A DNA stretch of 64,000 bases. Origin: Lentisphaeria bacterium (GTDB taxonomy: Bacteria > Verrucomicrobiota > Lentisphaeria > Victivallales > Victivallaceae). Positions 10,679 to 18,447 of the stretch are shown piece after piece (position 1 is the first letter of the stretch; each line of letters opens with the position of its first letter). Where the stretch lies: NCBI GenBank assembly GCA_017456285.1, contig JAFTJQ010000004.1:62001-126000 (forward strand). The letters run 5' to 3'. The translations under genes and the position numbers were made by a program. Below the pieces are notes generated by a model, which saw nothing but the letters and a program-made list of their open reading frames with translations, ran no database searches and was not told the origin of the DNA.

Positions 10679-11962
10679 ATGAAAAAATCCATCATTTCAA
10701 CAATCGTGACACTATTAATACCGATAGTTATCCATGCTATAGAATTACCGAATGCAGTAATTTACGGAACAACCAATAAAGAACCTTTAAGTTATCAAGT
10801 CGGAGAAGAGATGATTTTCAAATTTCAGCTCAAAAATGTTGACAATAACAATTCGAGCAATACCTTTTTCAAATACTTCCGCCGTGGCGATGACGGCAAA
10901 ACTTTTGAGGGCAAAGCTCCGAGCAATGAACCACTGATTTTGAAAACTTCCCTTGATCGTGCAGGATTTGTCGGAATTGATGTTTTTCTCGTTGACAGCG
11001 AGGGCAAAAATGTAACAAGCAACGGCAAAAAAATCGCCTTTTATGCCGGAAGTGCAGTTAATCCCGAATCGCTTACCGACTGCGGCGAGCCTGAAGATTT
11101 TGACAAATTCTGGGCGGAACAGCTCAAAAAACTTGCCGCCGTACCTTTTCGTGATAAAGTCGAGAAAGTCCTGCTTTTTACTAAAGGCACCATGAGTTAT
11201 TACAAAGTAAAAGTTCCCTGCCTCGGCCCTCGCCCGATGACCGCTTACTTGTGCATGCCGAGCAAAGCGGCAAAGCAGAGTTTGAAAGTCGAAGTTCACT
11301 TCTGCGGATACGGCACTTACAAAGTAACTTGTCCGACCCAGTGGCCGAAGCACGACCGCATAACCCTTTTGGTCAATGCACACGGCATGGAATTGGGCGA
11401 ATCCGATGAGTATTACAAAGAATTTTTTGCAAGCCTCAAGTCAAACGGACACAATTACGCATTCGACCCTGAATTAAATAAAAAATTGGAAACATGCTAT
11501 TTTCACGGCATGGCGATGCGTGCTTTGCGTGCAGTGGAATACGCAAAAACCCTGCCCGAATGGGACGGCAAAAACTTAATCGCCATCGGCGGCAGTCAAG
11601 CAGGTTTGCAAACGATGTGGGTAACTGCGCTTGACTCTGATGTAAGTGAAAGTTATCCCTCAATTATCTGGTGCTGCGATATGGCAGGTACAACTAAAAA
11701 ACAGCGTTGCCATGGGGGATGGAGAGTCAAACACACTCCGCTTTTAGATTATTTTGACCCGGTATTCATGGCAAAAAGAATCAAAAATGCTCAAGTTCAC
11801 ATTACCAGAGCAGGTTTAGGTGATTATATCTGTCCGCCGTCAGGCTTGGCAATTTGTTACCGCAACTTGGCAACTCCGCACAAAAAAATTGTCTGGGTGC
11901 AGGGAAGCAGTCATGATTTTACTCCGGCAGATGCAGAAAAGGTAATTTGGGCAAATGAATAA
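10679..11962 (+). CDS. Secreted CE7-family acetyl esterase (acetylxylan esterase / cephalosporin-C deacetylase type)
   Basis: 427 aa with an N-terminal signal peptide (MKKSIISTIVTLLIPIVIHA). After a beta domain of about 120 residues comes an alpha/beta hydrolase typical of CE7: EDFDKFWAEQLKKL near 140, then IAIGGSQAGLQ with nucleophile Ser306, a GLGDYICPPSG segment supplying the acid, and GSSHDF supplying the His. The family deacetylates short xylo-oligosaccharides and other small acetyl esters. The extra N-terminal domain makes it longer than the usual 320 aa. It is divergent from the GH operon and its end overlaps the AraC gene by eight bases. It likely strips acetyl groups from the glycan handled by the neighbouring operon. 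Ribosome site AAAGGA. Confidence 0.85.
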   Translation: MKKSIISTIVTLLIPIVIHAIELPNAVIYGTTNKEPLSYQVGEEMIFKFQLKNVDNNNSSNTFFKYFRRGDDGKTFEGKAPSNEPLILKTSLDRAGFVGIDVFLVDSEGKNVTSNGKKIAFYAGSAVNPESLTDCGEPEDFDKFWAEQLKKLAAVPFRDKVEKVLLFTKGTMSYYKVKVPCLGPRPMTAYLCMPSKAAKQSLKVEVHFCGYGTYKVTCPTQWPKHDRITLLVNAHGMELGESDEYYKEFFASLKSNGHNYAFDPELNKKLETCYFHGMAMRALRAVEYAKTLPEWDGKNLIAIGGSQAGLQTMWVTALDSDVSESYPSIIWCCDMAGTTKKQRCHGGWRVKHTPLLDYFDPVFMAKRIKNAQVHITRAGLGDYICPPSGLAICYRNLATPHKKIVWVQGSSHDFTPADAEKVIWANE

Positions 11963-12815
11963 TTTTATTTTTCCAGTAAGCAGCAATAATTCCTATATCC
12001 CCGATAATTTCAAATGCTGGTCGCTGGACTTATCGCTTCCGGAATTTACCGAATTAGCATTTTCGGGATGCAGCTGCATTATTTTAGTTGAGTGTCCTGC
12101 CGGCTGGAATATCAGCCGTCGGGGGGATTGGGAAGAACGCCATCTCGACTTTTACTTTATAGAATCCGGCAGTTTTACACTCCGCACCAAAGATAAAGTA
12201 ATTCATGCCAAAGCAGGAGAAATACTGCAAATTACCTCATGGGATGACCGCTATTTGGAGCAAACAGCAAGCGGCAGACACGTTTATGTCAGATTCAACA
12301 ATCCAGAAAACTACCCTGCCGTAAGTGCCAGCCGCTGTCATGAATGTAATGCAATCGAAGACTTGAATTTTTATACGACAAAACTTTTGCACCCGAATGT
12401 TAATTTGCCGAATGAGAAACTTTATCGTCAATTTCTTGCTCAATTAATACACATTTTATTGCAAAGAGAATTGCATTGGCTTTCCGATTCGGAGTCCGAG
12501 GAAATTCAAAAACTTCAGCAGATATTAAATGACTCACAACGAAGAAATTTTGAGGTGCTTCCGATTGCCAAGCAGATGGGCATGAGCTTCTCCAAATTCC
12601 GCAATTTCTGTCTGAAAAACTTCGGAAAATCTCCTCGCAAAGTCGTTGAAGATATCCTAATGACCAGAGCCAGAGGCATGCTTAATTACAGCCCGCTGAC
12701 GATTGACGACATCGCCGAGCAGTTGGGTTTCTCCGACCGCTTTGCTTTCTCAAAAGCCTTTGCGAGACACAACAACACCTCCCCTGTTGCCTACCGTAAA
12801 TACTTCAATAAATAG
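11955..12815 (+). CDS. AraC-family transcriptional regulator
   Basis: 286 aa. The N-terminal half is cupin-like and probably senses a ligand (FYFIESGSFTLRTKDKVIHA, AGEILQITSWDD). The C-terminal 100 residues are the double helix-turn-helix of AraC/XylS: LPIAKQMGMSFSKFRNFCLK and then IDDIAEQLGFSDRFAFSKAF followed by SPVAYRKYF. The start overlaps the CE7 esterase by eight bases, suggesting coupled translation. Its position next to the divergent promoter region makes it the likely regulator of both the esterase unit and the pseudopilin-GH operon. Confidence 0.9.
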   Translation: MNNFIFPVSSNNSYIPDNFKCWSLDLSLPEFTELAFSGCSCIILVECPAGWNISRRGDWEERHLDFYFIESGSFTLRTKDKVIHAKAGEILQITSWDDRYLEQTASGRHVYVRFNNPENYPAVSASRCHECNAIEDLNFYTTKLLHPNVNLPNEKLYRQFLAQLIHILLQRELHWLSDSESEEIQKLQQILNDSQRRNFEVLPIAKQMGMSFSKFRNFCLKNFGKSPRKVVEDILMTRARGMLNYSPLTIDDIAEQLGFSDRFAFSKAFARHNNTSPVAYRKYFNK

Positions 12816-12913: not shown

Positions 12914-12941
12914 TTGACTTTTTCAAAATATGTGGTAGAAT
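12914..12941 (+). promoter_or_regulatory. Promoter of the structured leader RNA / EamA gene
   Basis: TTGACT (12914-12919), 16 bases, TAGAAT (12936-12941). The start site would be near 12948, exactly where the stem of the leader RNA begins. Confidence 0.65.
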
Positions 12942-12947
12942 AATTAT

Positions 12948-13018
12948 AGAAGTCATCATGCTGAATGTGAACTTTAGATCGATTCTAAGGCTGCATTATT
13001 AAATGACTTCATTTTTTT
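12948..13018 (+). ncRNA. Structured leader RNA with terminator-like end, upstream of EamA transporter
   Basis: A transcript from the preceding promoter would begin with GAAGTCAT (12949-12956). This pairs with ATGACTTC (13003-13010), which is followed by a run of seven T. Inside, ATGC pairs with GCAT, and CTTTAGA pairs with TCTAAGG around a UCGAU loop. The whole looks like an RNA of about 70 nt ending in an intrinsic terminator. It could be a free small RNA or a riboswitch/attenuator for the transporter starting at 13091. It does not match a riboswitch class I recognise. Confidence 0.55.
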
Positions 13019-13057
13019 AACAACCATTTATGAATAATTGCCGAAATTATTAAATGA
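12995..13057 (+). repeat. 12-bp direct repeat ATTATTAAATGA, two copies
   Basis: ATTATTAAATGA occurs at 12995-13006 and again at 13046-13057. The first copy overlaps the 3' strand of the leader RNA stem, so the second copy might compete for the same partner strand or be a regulator half-site. Chance is possible in such AT-rich sequence. Confidence 0.4.
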
Positions 13058-13090
13058 TTAAAAATCGGTATCCATAAACAAGGTAAAATA

Positions 13091-13996
13091 ATGAATATTA
13101 ATGCAAAATTATCAGGTTCGATTTTTGGGATTATTTCTGCTGTAACGTACGGCATGAATCCGCTTTTCGGGTTACCGCTTTACCAAAAAGGGATTACCAC
13201 ATATTCGGTATTGTTTTACCGTTTCTTCTTCGCCCTGATTTTATTGGGAATAATCATGCTCATCCGCAAACAGTCATTTAAAATCGAAAAAAAGCAACTA
13301 TTAATGAGCGGAATCGGTGGCATATTACTATCGCTATCCTGTCTCGGACTTTTTTTAAGTTTCCACCATATTGACGGGGGAATAGCAGTCACGATACTTT
13401 TTGTCTGCCCTGTAATCATCTCTTCAATTATGTATCTTTTTTTTCATGTCAAGCAGAGTATATCTACATTGATTGGGATGTTTTGTGCTATGGGAGGAAT
13501 CGCTTTGCTGTCTTTGGGTAAAGGGGTAGAACATTTCAGTTTAACCGGCATTGTTTTGGCGTTTTCCTCTGCCTCGACCTATGCGATCTATATGGTCATG
13601 GTCAAAGTCAGCTGCTTAAAAAACCTATCGTCAGAAACTCTTACTTTTTATGTTATGCTTTTTGGGCTTTCAGTGTTTTTTGTTACCCTGAATTTTGGCA
13701 TAAATTTGCAAATACTTCCTGATATTTTCAGTTTGCTCTGTGCTTTAGGATTGGCATTATTCCCATCATTGTTTTCATTTCTTTTCATGGCGATTGCGAT
13801 TAAACACATCGGGCCGTCCAAAACGGCTATTTTGGGAGTATTAGAGCCGGTAACTGCCTTGCTGATAGGGATTTTAGTTTTCGGAGAATCTTTAAGTTTT
13901 CAGCAAATAATTGCGGTGGCAATCATACTTATTTCCGTATCAATAGTTGTTACGGGGAAACCGCCTGCTACAGTAAAAGCAAAACTCAAATCATAA
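13091..13996 (+). CDS. EamA/DMT-superfamily transporter
   Basis: 301 aa with ten predicted membrane segments arranged as two repeats of five, the layout of the EamA (RhaT-like) drug/metabolite transporter family. The first repeat starts SGSIFGIISAVTYGMNPLFG; the second starts GIVLAFSSASTYAIYMVMV and ends LEPVTALLIGILVFGESL, a typical EamA motif. Such proteins usually export amino acids or other small metabolites. It stands alone with its own promoter and leader RNA, and converges with the cobalamin transporter operon. Substrate is unknown. Ribosome site AAGG lies seven bases before the ATG. Confidence 0.8.
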   Translation: MNINAKLSGSIFGIISAVTYGMNPLFGLPLYQKGITTYSVLFYRFFFALILLGIIMLIRKQSFKIEKKQLLMSGIGGILLSLSCLGLFLSFHHIDGGIAVTILFVCPVIISSIMYLFFHVKQSISTLIGMFCAMGGIALLSLGKGVEHFSLTGIVLAFSSASTYAIYMVMVKVSCLKNLSSETLTFYVMLFGLSVFFVTLNFGINLQILPDIFSLLCALGLALFPSLFSFLFMAIAIKHIGPSKTAILGVLEPVTALLIGILVFGESLSFQQIIAVAIILISVSIVVTGKPPATVKAKLKS

Positions 13997-14041: not shown

Positions 14042-14791
14042 CTAATTAAAAATTATCCCCTTATCGGCAATTATTTCTGCTTTTGAATTATAGACTTGAC
14101 CGATAACTTCACTATTAAGAATGCTTTTCGGTTCACCGCAAGCAACAGTTTCACCGTTTTTCAACAAATACAGTTTATCCGCATATTTCCATGCCATATT
14201 CAAGTCATGGCAGATCATCAAAATACCGATTTTATCGCTCAATTTGCGGAGTATCTCCATGATTTTTTTGGCATTCTCAATGTCTAATGCGGCAGTAGGT
14301 TCATCGAGTAAAAGGAAATCACTTTTTTGCACCAGTGCTTTAGCTAAAAAAACTCTTGCTTGTTCACCGACCGAGAGTTTATTTACCACCCGATCTGCAA
14401 ATTGACTGATTTCAAGTCTATCCATAACCGCCTGACAAATCTCTGAACTCTCTCGATCAATCGGCAAAAATCGACTTAAATAGAGCGATCTCCCCAGCAT
14501 CACCAATTCACTGACAGTAAAATCCAATACGACATTATTTTGCTGTGGAACAACTGCAATTTTTTTCGCCCGTTCCGCCAAAGGGATTTTATTAATATTT
14601 TCACCGTCAAGCAGAACTTCCCCATTGTCGCTTCGATAAAAAGCACTTAAAAGTTTCAAAATTGTCGATTTCCCGCTGCCATTCGGTCCCGAAAGCATTA
14701 CAAACTCTCCACGCTCAAGCGAGAGTGAGAAATCCCTTATAAGCGGAGTTGCTCCGTAACTGAAATTCAAATTCCTTGCTTCCAAACTCAT
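14042..14791 (-). CDS. btuD: Cobalamin-type ABC transporter, ATP-binding protein (BtuD-like)
   Basis: 249 aa, cytoplasmic. Walker A GPNGSGKST at residues 35-43, Q-loop VVPQQN, signature LSVGEQARV, Walker B FLLLDEPTAALD and the switch His in MICHDLN are all present and intact. It belongs to the FecE/BtuD branch serving iron-siderophore or cobalamin importers. Its start overlaps the permease stop by four bases (ATGA). The operon is headed by a cobalamin riboswitch, which makes vitamin B12 or another corrinoid the likely cargo. It converges with the EamA gene across a short gap holding a run of nine G. Confidence 0.88.
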   Translation of the reverse strand: MSLEARNLNFSYGATPLIRDFSLSLERGEFVMLSGPNGSGKSTILKLLSAFYRSDNGEVLLDGENINKIPLAERAKKIAVVPQQNNVVLDFTVSELVMLGRSLYLSRFLPIDRESSEICQAVMDRLEISQFADRVVNKLSVGEQARVFLAKALVQKSDFLLLDEPTAALDIENAKKIMEILRKLSDKIGILMICHDLNMAWKYADKLYLLKNGETVACGEPKSILNSEVIGQVYNSKAEIIADKGIIFN

Positions 14792-15732
14792 TTGAAACTC
14801 CTCTGTTTTCGCAAAATAAAAAGAAATAAAGGCCCCCCGATAAAGGCACTTAAAATGCCGATCGGAATCTCTCGCTCGGTAAATATAACCCTGCTGCCGA
14901 TGTCACAGAGCATAAGAAAAATCCCCCCTGCCCCGAAGGTGCTGACCATAATTTTTCGGTGATCACACCCCCACAAACGGCGAACAATGTGCGGAATTAT
15001 CAGTCCGCAAAAACCGATAATCCCTGCCAAAGCAACAGTCGATGCACTCAAAAAAGCCGCAGCAACCGTAAATAAAATACTCATTTTTCGAGTATCTACC
15101 CCCTGATAAAAAGCACTCTCATCCCCCAAAGAAATTGCATTAATTTCAGACGCAAAATATTGAAAAAACAACACTGCAAAACTTGCATAAATCCCCAAAA
15201 ATAACAGTAATTGCGGATTTACCGCTTGCAAATCTCCGAGCATGAAATAGGTAATACTTGCCAAATCCTGTGCATCAGAAATGCTGATTAGATACATCAG
15301 TAAACTCCCTGCCAAAGTTCCGACAATTATCCCTGAAAGCAGGAGATTTTCACTTGAATAATTGCTTCGGAAACTAATCGCCAAAACTATCGCAAGCACG
15401 ATTAATGACCCAAGCAGTGCCGAAAATGGTACCGCATAAATCGTAATTGAGTGCAATCCCCAAATAAATGCTATCGCCGTGCCGATACTTGCTCCGCCCG
15501 AAATGCCGAGCGTAAATGGTTCGGCTAAAACATTTTTCAATATTGCCTGAAAAATTAACCCCGACAGTGCCAAACTCCCCCCGATAAAAAATGCTCCGAG
15601 CATGCGGATAAACCTTAATTCAGCAATCGGCGATTCCCATAGTTCACTCCAAGTCAATGTGCTTGACCCGAAAAACACCCCAACAATGAGCAAAATAATG
15701 CTTAAAATAAGCAAGAATAAATTTCTTTTCAT
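14788..15732 (-). CDS. btuC: Cobalamin-type ABC transporter permease (BtuC/FecCD family)
   Basis: 314 aa with nine or ten membrane segments. Diagnostic FecCD/BtuC blocks include RMLGAFFIGGSLALSGLIFQ, VLAEPFTLGISGGASIGTA, and GIIGFCGLIIPHIVRRLWGC near residue 240, the coupling helices that meet the ATPase. Slightly short for the family (about 330 aa). It overlaps both neighbours by four bases, indicating tight translational coupling in a btuF-btuC-btuD order. The substrate call rests on the upstream riboswitch. Confidence 0.9.
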   Translation of the reverse strand: MKRNLFLLILSIILLIVGVFFGSSTLTWSELWESPIAELRFIRMLGAFFIGGSLALSGLIFQAILKNVLAEPFTLGISGGASIGTAIAFIWGLHSITIYAVPFSALLGSLIVLAIVLAISFRSNYSSENLLLSGIIVGTLAGSLLMYLISISDAQDLASITYFMLGDLQAVNPQLLLFLGIYASFAVLFFQYFASEINAISLGDESAFYQGVDTRKMSILFTVAAAFLSASTVALAGIIGFCGLIIPHIVRRLWGCDHRKIMVSTFGAGGIFLMLCDIGSRVIFTEREIPIGILSAFIGGPLFLFILRKQRSFK

Positions 15733-16517
15733 TGCAGTGCCTCCAATTTGCTCCTTAATTCCGCTATTCCCTCAAAAATTCTCGGTGCCATGCGGAGTGT
15801 AATATCCTCATTTAAGTCATAAATAATTTTGCCCTTTTTTACCGCAGGAATTTTTTGCCAAATCGGCTTTCTCCACCCATTCGGAGAGCCGCTGTAAATT
15901 ACCACATCAGGATTTTGCTTAATAACCCAATCAAGCGAACACTTGAAATACGGTTGCCCGATATTTTCAGCGATATTTGCCACCCCTGCAAGCTGTAGAA
16001 TTTCATCAGGAAGTGAATTTGCCCCTGCAACCATCAGCGGAGCGTCAAAAATTATCCATAACACCTTGATATTTAATGGCTTATAACGATTTTTCTTAAA
16101 ATCAGCAATTTTTGCAATTTCTTTTTCTGCAAGTGCTTGTTTATTAAAGAGTTGGGATATTTTTTCAACACACTTCTCATAATCATGCAAACTATTGCAT
16201 TGCAACATCAGCACTTCAATTTTCTGTTGCTCAAAAATTGCAATCACACCGGGATTGATCAAATCATTAGTTACAATATGTGTCGGTTTCAATCGAAGAA
16301 TTTTCTCCACATTAGGTTTGGCAAAAGCACCTGCAATCGGGAGATTTTTGACCGATTCCGGATAGTTGCAAACTTCGCTTCGACCGACGAGGTTTTCCCG
16401 TAACCCCAGATGGCAAATAATTTCCGTCATTGCAGGAGAGAGTGAGACAATGCGGAACTCCTCCGCATTGCTCAATATTGCAACAAATATTAAAAACAGT
16501 TGTAAAAGTTTTTTCAT
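15729..16517 (-). CDS. btuF: Periplasmic cobalamin-binding protein (BtuF-like)
   Basis: About 262 aa. An upstream ATG at 16538 lies inside the pseudopilin gene end and would add seven residues before the signal peptide; the ATG at 16517 places the signal MKKLLQLFLIFVAILSNA at the start and is preferred. The mature protein shows the class III binding-protein fold: RIVSLSPAMTEIICHLGL, LVGRSEVCNYP, a long connecting helix, and a second lobe with QLAGVANIAENIGQPYFKCS and NPDVVIYSGS. NYP with the preceding R-x-E-x-C resembles the BtuF site region. It binds corrinoid in the periplasm and delivers it to BtuCD. Confidence 0.87.
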   Translation of the reverse strand: MKKLLQLFLIFVAILSNAEEFRIVSLSPAMTEIICHLGLRENLVGRSEVCNYPESVKNLPIAGAFAKPNVEKILRLKPTHIVTNDLINPGVIAIFEQQKIEVLMLQCNSLHDYEKCVEKISQLFNKQALAEKEIAKIADFKKNRYKPLNIKVLWIIFDAPLMVAGANSLPDEILQLAGVANIAENIGQPYFKCSLDWVIKQNPDVVIYSGSPNGWRKPIWQKIPAVKKGKIIYDLNEDITLRMAPRIFEGIAELRSKLEALQ

Positions 16518-16521
16518 AATT

Positions 16522-17337
16522 TTACCAACTTGGATCAAACATATAATTTCTGTCGCTTCCGCTCTTTTTTTCGCCGATAAAGCCTAAAAAATATTCATTC
16601 TCAAGTTCATCTGTGCTTGCACCCGAATAGCCTGCTTGAGTAAAACCCCATTCCGCAGATTCCGCATGCCCATCCGCAAAAAGCGTATTGCAACGCTTAT
16701 TGTGCCGAAAGTGCATACTGGGTGTAGAGTCACCGTACCCATTGTCAGGAGCGTAAATTGAGGGGGATTCCTGCATGACCCCCGAACTTAAAAGCGAACT
16801 ATCTGCGAAAGCAACTTTAGCCGCAACGTTTTTAACAGATGAAATTCGATATTGCTTTTCCTGCATAGTTGCCCAATCGAAAAAGCCCAGAAGTTCATTG
16901 TAACCGTATCCGCCTGAACCTGCATTGTATTGAGTTTTGTCAGTGTATTCGGCTAAAGAGGGGCAACTTTTTATTTTTTTGCTGCTGCCTAAATATGGGA
17001 TTAAACCGCCCTCCGCTTCCCAGTTGTCAGCACCTTTTCTCAAGCCGCACCAATACTGAACAGAGGCTTGGTCATAAGCAAGTACACAATAGTCATCATT
17101 GTCATTAGTGTACATCAAAAAAGCCATGCCGAGCTGTTTAATGTTGCTGATACAATTTGCGGAACGTCCCTTTTCACGGGCTTTATTGAGTGCAGGCAGC
17201 AGCATCCCTGCCAAAATGGCAATGATGGCAATAACCACGAGCAATTCAATGAGAGTGAAGCGAGATTTTTTGACGGCAGGAGTTACCATGCGATTGCAGA
17301 AAACTCCACAATAAAATTGAGTAAAAATTTTTTTCAT
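16522..17337 (-). CDS. H-X9-DG pseudopilin under cobalamin riboswitch control
   Basis: 271 aa. After a basic leader of about 26 residues comes [19 protein letters not shown], the pilin-type helix; the -1 residue is Arg, not Gly. The head carries a Cys after the helix (NCISN), a KSCPSLAEY block, GYGYNELLG, and [13 protein letters not shown], an exact H-X9-DG. It lies just downstream of the cobalamin riboswitch and four bases ahead of btuF, so it is the first gene of the B12 uptake operon. That position suggests a role in corrinoid capture or passage to BtuF. The start at 17337 has a weak AAGAAAG ribosome site; the ATG at 17289 is an alternative but its GGAG is 14 bases away. Confidence 0.88.
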
Positions 17338-17368: not shown

Positions 17369-17512
17369 TTAAGCGATTTTTTCATCCAAAGGTCGGGATC
17401 TGACTTAAAATTAATGGTTCGGTACATTAACTTCTCACAGTTACGCGATAGTTCCGGATTTGCACCGGATTCACCGATATTGCTTTGAATACTTTTTTAA
17501 TATACCGCTTAA
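17369..17512 (-). promoter_or_regulatory. Cobalamin riboswitch
   Basis: Read on the minus strand, this leader contains the B12 aptamer core: GGTGAATCCGGTGCAAATCC, then GGAACTATCGCG, then AACTGTGAGAAG, and the box AAGTCAGATCCCGACC. The outer P1 stem is exact: TTAAGCG (plus positions 17506-17512) pairs with CGCTTAA (17369-17375). Downstream, a TTGTG/CACAA hairpin (17351-17367) abuts the weak ribosome site of the pseudopilin gene, and no U-run follows, so translational control is more likely than termination. High cobalamin is expected to repress the pseudopilin-btuFCD operon. Confidence 0.93.
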
Positions 17513-17537
17513 GTGAAAGTTTTTCAAATGAAATAGA

Positions 17538-18275: not shown

Positions 18276-18406
18276 ATTGAAGTAGGTAGTAAATACTTAA
18301 AAAAGAAAAGTTTTATTTATGTAGTATAATATAAAAAATTGGGAATAACTTAACTATATTGATTGCAGTAGAAATTAACAGCGAAGCAATTATAATACTG
18401 AGAGGG

Positions 18407-18447
18407 AAAGTGGGCGTGAAAATTATACCCCCGCTTTTTTCTTTTTT
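18407..18447 (+). terminator. Terminator-like hairpin (possible attenuator) before nusA
   Basis: AAAGTGGG (18407-18414) pairs with CCCGCTTT (18430-18437) with one G-U pair, followed by an almost unbroken T-run to 18447. No plus-strand gene precedes it, so it would stop transcripts from the nusA promoter itself: either an attenuator or the end of a short RNA of about 165 nt. Confidence 0.55.

Follow-up and report, generated by a model that had tools for sequence, protein, structure and literature searches.

What is the short hairpin that lies, with a promoter and a terminator of its own, ahead of a transporter gene in a gut Victivallales bacterium? The initial annotation proposed either a riboswitch-like attenuator that senses the cargo of the transporter or a free small RNA of ∼70 nt. 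We read the element, hereafter E1, as a ∼70-nt self-terminating small noncoding RNA gene, one of two in the species, and judge the chances of this reading to be about even.

Locus and Genome Setting

The window is a stretch of 64,000 nt (positions 62001-126000 of contig C3) in a 2.42-Mb genome of 92 contigs. E1 is located in a 275-nt intergenic region between an AraC-type regulator gene and eamA, both on the plus strand, and eamA starts 80 nt downstream of the E1 closing stem on the same strand.

11955-12815, plus strand: AraC-type regulator gene, bordering the intergenic region on the 5' side
12914-12941, plus strand: sigma-70 promoter TTGACT-16-TAGAAT, 10/12 consensus, extended -10
12914-12919, plus strand: -35 TTGACT, read from the sequence
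12933-12934, plus strand: extended -10 TG, read from the sequence
12936-12941, plus strand: -10 TAGAAT, 16-nt spacer from the -35
12949-13019, plus strand: E1, predicted ∼70-nt self-terminating RNA (minimum free energy -18.6 kcal/mol)
13091-13996, plus strand: eamA, EamA/DMT-family transporter gene (Pfam PF00892, EamA, E 5e-30)
14042-16538, minus strand: BtuF/BtuC/BtuD-like transporter operon

The EamA protein is nearest to proteins of gut Victivallales metagenome-assembled genomes (62% and 59%), followed by those of other Lentisphaeria and Bacteroidales (∼41-51%). The AraC-type regulator upstream of eamA has no ortholog among 40 relatives. A promoter scan found no consensus promoter between the E1 stem and eamA, and because eamA lacks one of its own, it may also be fed by readthrough from the E1 promoter. 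A perfect 12-nt direct repeat, ATTATTAAATGA (12996-13007 and 13047-13058, 51 nt apart), flanks the T-run of E1. Elsewhere in the window, a cobalamin riboswitch (17374-17525, minus strand, 37.9 bits) lies upstream of a pilin-like gene and the Btu-like operon.

Promoter, Hairpin, and Terminator of E1

The promoter that had been proposed is present and also carries an extended -10 TG. As expected of a small RNA gene, it is placed for a start at the 5' end of the RNA. The stem begins 7 nt past the -10, in agreement with the annotated start at the stem; the start itself, at ∼12948-12949, is predicted from the -10. Transcription from this strong extended -10 promoter would thus begin at the base of a rod-like hairpin. 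Partly similar promoter-like sites occur ahead of other genes in the genome (e.g., L006), with parts of the spacer in common. A minus-strand promoter-like site, TTCACA-17-TATAAT (11/12; 12943-12971), overlaps the AT-rich -10 region, and a bidirectional promoter is possible.

The partition function yields an unbranched rod of three helices with no aptamer-like junction.

12949-12956, plus strand: P1 5' arm GAAGTCAT, closing and terminator stem (pairing probability 0.87-1.0)
12964-12969, plus strand: P2 5' arm AAUGUG, pairing with 12992-12997 (0.43-0.99)
12972-12978, plus strand: P3 5' arm CUUUAGA, pairing with 12984-12990 (0.92-1.0)
12984-12990, plus strand: P3 3' arm (TCTAAGG), from the partition function
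12992-12997, plus strand: P2 3' arm UGCAUU, from the partition function
13003-13010, plus strand: P1 3' arm ATGACTTC, from the partition function
13012-13018, plus strand: T7 tract of the intrinsic terminator, one A after the stem
12958-13002, plus strand: 14-codon open reading frame (ORF) MLNVNFRSILRLHY followed by a stop, within the hairpin

The annotated long-range stem is recovered as a perfect 8 bp, GAAGTCAT (12949-12956) paired to ATGACTTC (13003-13010), as are the seven T at the end of the element (13012-13018). Of the two helices said to be enclosed, CTTTAGA/TCTAAGG (12972-12978/12984-12990) stands and closes a UCGAU loop, whereas ATGC/GCAT has a pairing probability of 0.0: the structure that contains it reaches -14.8 versus -18.6 kcal/mol, and GCAU pairs in AAUGUG/UGCAUU instead. 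The 8-bp stem (probability near 1) and the T7 tract are predicted to constitute an intrinsic terminator at the 3' end. The closing stem and T-run would thereby double as terminator, and with its 5' and 3' ends paired, the RNA would end itself. No alternative antiterminator fold competes by energy. On fold alone, the signal is modest (z = -3.1, with 1 of 200 shuffles equally good).

The arrangement is more distinctive than the fold. A promoter followed 3-12 nt later by an 8-bp stem and a T-run is expected ∼0.05 times per 64-kb strand (1 match in 20 simulated strands of Markov controls) and is seen twice on the plus strand of the window, in E1 and in the leader of nusA (18369-18440). In the latter, a promoter-like site stands directly before a hairpin and T-rich tract upstream of nusA, possibly an autoregulatory attenuator. 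A looser scan for promoter-terminator units, covering 423 kb of the genome, found 39 versus 9-16 in controls, several of the 39 being tRNA genes or resembling 3' terminators.

The 14-codon ORF is probably not a real leader peptide. An ORF of equal length occurs in 9% of shuffles, its Shine-Dalgarno pairing is no better than at random sites, it has no repeated regulatory codon run, and it has no counterpart in the second RNA described below. These results speak against a leader-peptide attenuator.

A Second Predicted RNA behind an Identical Promoter

The 28-bp promoter of E1 recurs once in the genome, on contig C30 (G000:C30:4734-4761, minus strand), where 28/28 positions are identical; it was absent from 60 relatives with up to three mismatches allowed. 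Behind this copy is a second predicted RNA, E2.

G000:C30:4656-4761 (L002 1435-1540), minus strand: E2 with the identical promoter
C30:4656-4724, minus strand: E2 RNA, with the same offset from the promoter, length, and helix order as E1

E2 has a closing stem, GTAGTTGATT/AATCAATTAC, and inner helices ATTGCTG/CAGCAAT and CCTACC/GGTAGG, followed by TTTTTT. It folds more stably than E1 (minimum free energy -30.8 kcal/mol, z of -5.6 to -6.9), again with no alternative antiterminator fold. It is divergent from a RimO/MiaB-like gene and precedes not a transporter gene but an orphan 64-aa ORF, which starts 88 nt after the stem and has no recognizable family or relatives.

Several comparisons bear on whether the two RNAs are related. 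A covariance model built from E1 places E2 full-length at the spot defined by the promoter (17.6 bits, E 0.043 in 9.2 kb), but genome-wide this model does not single out E2, as two chance matches score higher (22.5 and 18 bits). Of the 21 pairs in the model, 19 are retained in E2, one is mismatched, and one is gapped, and 14 of the 21 differ on both sides; 97.6% of pair cells in the alignment are standard. Because the structure guided the alignment, these counts call for caution: two hairpins of the same length with no common origin would do about as well. Judged without regard to structure and with gaps allowed, a global alignment of the two transcribed regions is better than 99.5% of shuffles, whereas ungapped identity is borderline (P 0.06). 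The sequences have diverged, and no loop sequence is common to both. E1 and E2 are likely of common descent. An identical promoter does not by itself prove it: an unrelated contig (MT837695.1) carries a near-match to the promoter, so that this spacer can evidently arise elsewhere, and other promoter-like sites of the genome have parts of the spacer in common. That contig, an apparent "phage" match, is unannotated, has MinD- and HisS-like ORFs indicative of bacterial DNA, and matches in the promoter alone; it was discarded.

A third terminator-closed element resembles E1 and E2 in architecture only.

G000:C37:30521-30415 (L161 10521-10415), minus strand: E3, orphan small RNA candidate with promoter TTGACA-16-TATACT

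E3 has a 16-bp closing stem that is also its terminator, an inner GTGGTT/AACCAC hairpin, and an unpaired C-rich loop, ACACCUCCCCCUCCC, which by its sequence could bind Shine-Dalgarno sequences. Flanked by a glycosyltransferase gene and the convergent pgk, it is free-standing and has no relatives in 80 genomes. E3 demonstrates that this genome also carries such a plan where no gene lies downstream.

Distribution among Relatives

That the class was not recognized at first is borne out: no Rfam family matches E1 at the gathering threshold or at E<=10, and the permissive search returned only sub-threshold chance matches, mostly to snoRNA and miRNA models. The ykkC covariance models, searched at the same two thresholds, also gave no match. 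BLASTN of the element against 99 relatives produced nothing but short AT-rich chance pieces, and the model built from E1 alone found it in 0 of 148 other genomes. No match turned up in plasmids, and the exact promoter sequence was not found in viral contigs. The model trained on both RNAs (R2), which gives E1 85.4 bits with E1 in the training set, recovered E1 and E2 only, whether in a close search of 40 genomes or across 137 genomes of the order.

An element of this kind, had it served the transporter, was expected near transporter genes in relatives; the E1 covariance model found none at ∼90 EamA ortholog loci (94 sources). In the 62% ortholog (L056), eamA overlaps a MarR-like gene, leaving no room for a leader. 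Terminators occur within 250 nt upstream of 20 of 103 EamA orthologs, versus 7-15 in controls, and plausibly belong to the upstream genes. Ahead of the 59% ortholog (L030), a hairpin and T7 lie 86 nt before the start, with no recognizable promoter and no sequence match, and were not counted. E1 is a real, single-copy feature of an ordinary kind, lineage restricted and outside recognized families.

Competing Explanations

The main rival to a small RNA is an attenuating or limiting leader of eamA, in which most transcripts stop at E1 and a signal (a ligand, a protein, or a ribosome translating the 14-codon ORF) permits readthrough. The position of the terminator, 80 nt upstream of eamA on the same strand with no consensus promoter between, is what such a leader would show; E2 is likewise followed by an ORF after 88 nt, and EamA genes in general are known riboswitch customers, as with ykkC subtype 2d (PMC7266159). 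We nonetheless regard this account as doubtful: neither RNA has an antiterminator fold, the E2 hairpin is very stable, the 14-codon ORF is of chance length, lacks a Shine-Dalgarno sequence and is absent in E2, and the EamA ortholog loci are without such an element, the 62% ortholog even overlapping its neighbor. The vmlR leader, where ribosome-mediated attenuation controls a resistance gene (PMC9226507), likewise combines a short ORF with an intrinsic terminator upstream of a gene. It differs in that E1 has no antiterminator or anti-antiterminator and no Shine-Dalgarno sequence for its ORF, which E2 does not share. That eamA is controlled by a true metabolite riboswitch belonging to a new class, as the location before a transporter gene and the lack of an Rfam family might suggest, is highly improbable. 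The distribution and fold led us to reject this reading, and they do not support the sensing of cargo by an attenuator: E1 is an unbranched rod with no antiterminator, no conserved aptamer was found upstream of related genes (148 relatives, ∼90 EamA loci, and Rfam), and its diverged sister precedes a different gene, not a transporter gene, and shares none of its loops. The ykkC subtype 2d orphan riboswitch (PMC7266159) also precedes EamA-annotated transporters, but E1 has neither a match to it in Rfam nor a branched aptamer.

E1 could also be incidental, a promoter with an unregulated terminator or degenerate hairpin that insulates or is left over and has no RNA function. The lack of conservation in the genomes searched and a fold z of only -3.1 are consistent with this, as is the frequency with which AT-rich DNA produces a hairpin and T-run (19 and 30 long-loop terminator-like sites on the two strands of the window versus ∼14 in controls). 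We consider it unlikely, as the hairpin coincides with a strong promoter and a second unit stands behind an identical one. The small RNA reading has evidence against it as well: E1 was found in no other genome searched, and the co-directional gene that follows it has no clear promoter itself. Given that E2 does not precede a transporter gene, that neither RNA has an antiterminator, and that the ORF is at chance level, a self-terminating small RNA is the simplest account. The free ∼70-nt RNA of the initial annotation, a predicted transcript, is favored by its anatomy and by the second RNA.

Proposed Small RNAs in the Species

As a small RNA, E1 would act in trans through its unpaired loops, by base-pairing or by binding a protein. 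We infer its transcription, the efficiency of its termination, and its common descent with E2. It is like other intergenic, intrinsically terminated bacterial small RNAs in having its own sigma-70 promoter, a 5' end at a stem, a length of ∼70 nt, and a hairpin and U-run at its end. It is unlike them in that the whole RNA lies within the closing stem, which doubles as the terminator, and in being lineage restricted with no known seed or chaperone. Escherichia coli ChiZ and IspZ are short, leader-derived RNAs with independent functions (PMC7815308); like E1, they end within gene leaders, and IspZ probably does so through intrinsic termination, whereas E1 is a rod hairpin and has no known sequence relation to them. 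Among the open-access papers searched, Lentisphaerae, small RNAs, and riboswitches are named together in only one.

We tentatively suggest, with rather low confidence, that E1 and E2 form a young small RNA family: one duplicated promoter-terminator cassette whose promoter has stayed unchanged (28/28) while the transcripts diverge toward distinct targets, keeping length, helix plan, and terminator. If the family is real, its identical promoters and diverged hairpins would offer a clean example of how small RNAs are born and diverge. E1 is also a warning against naming every structured leader before a transporter gene a riboswitch.
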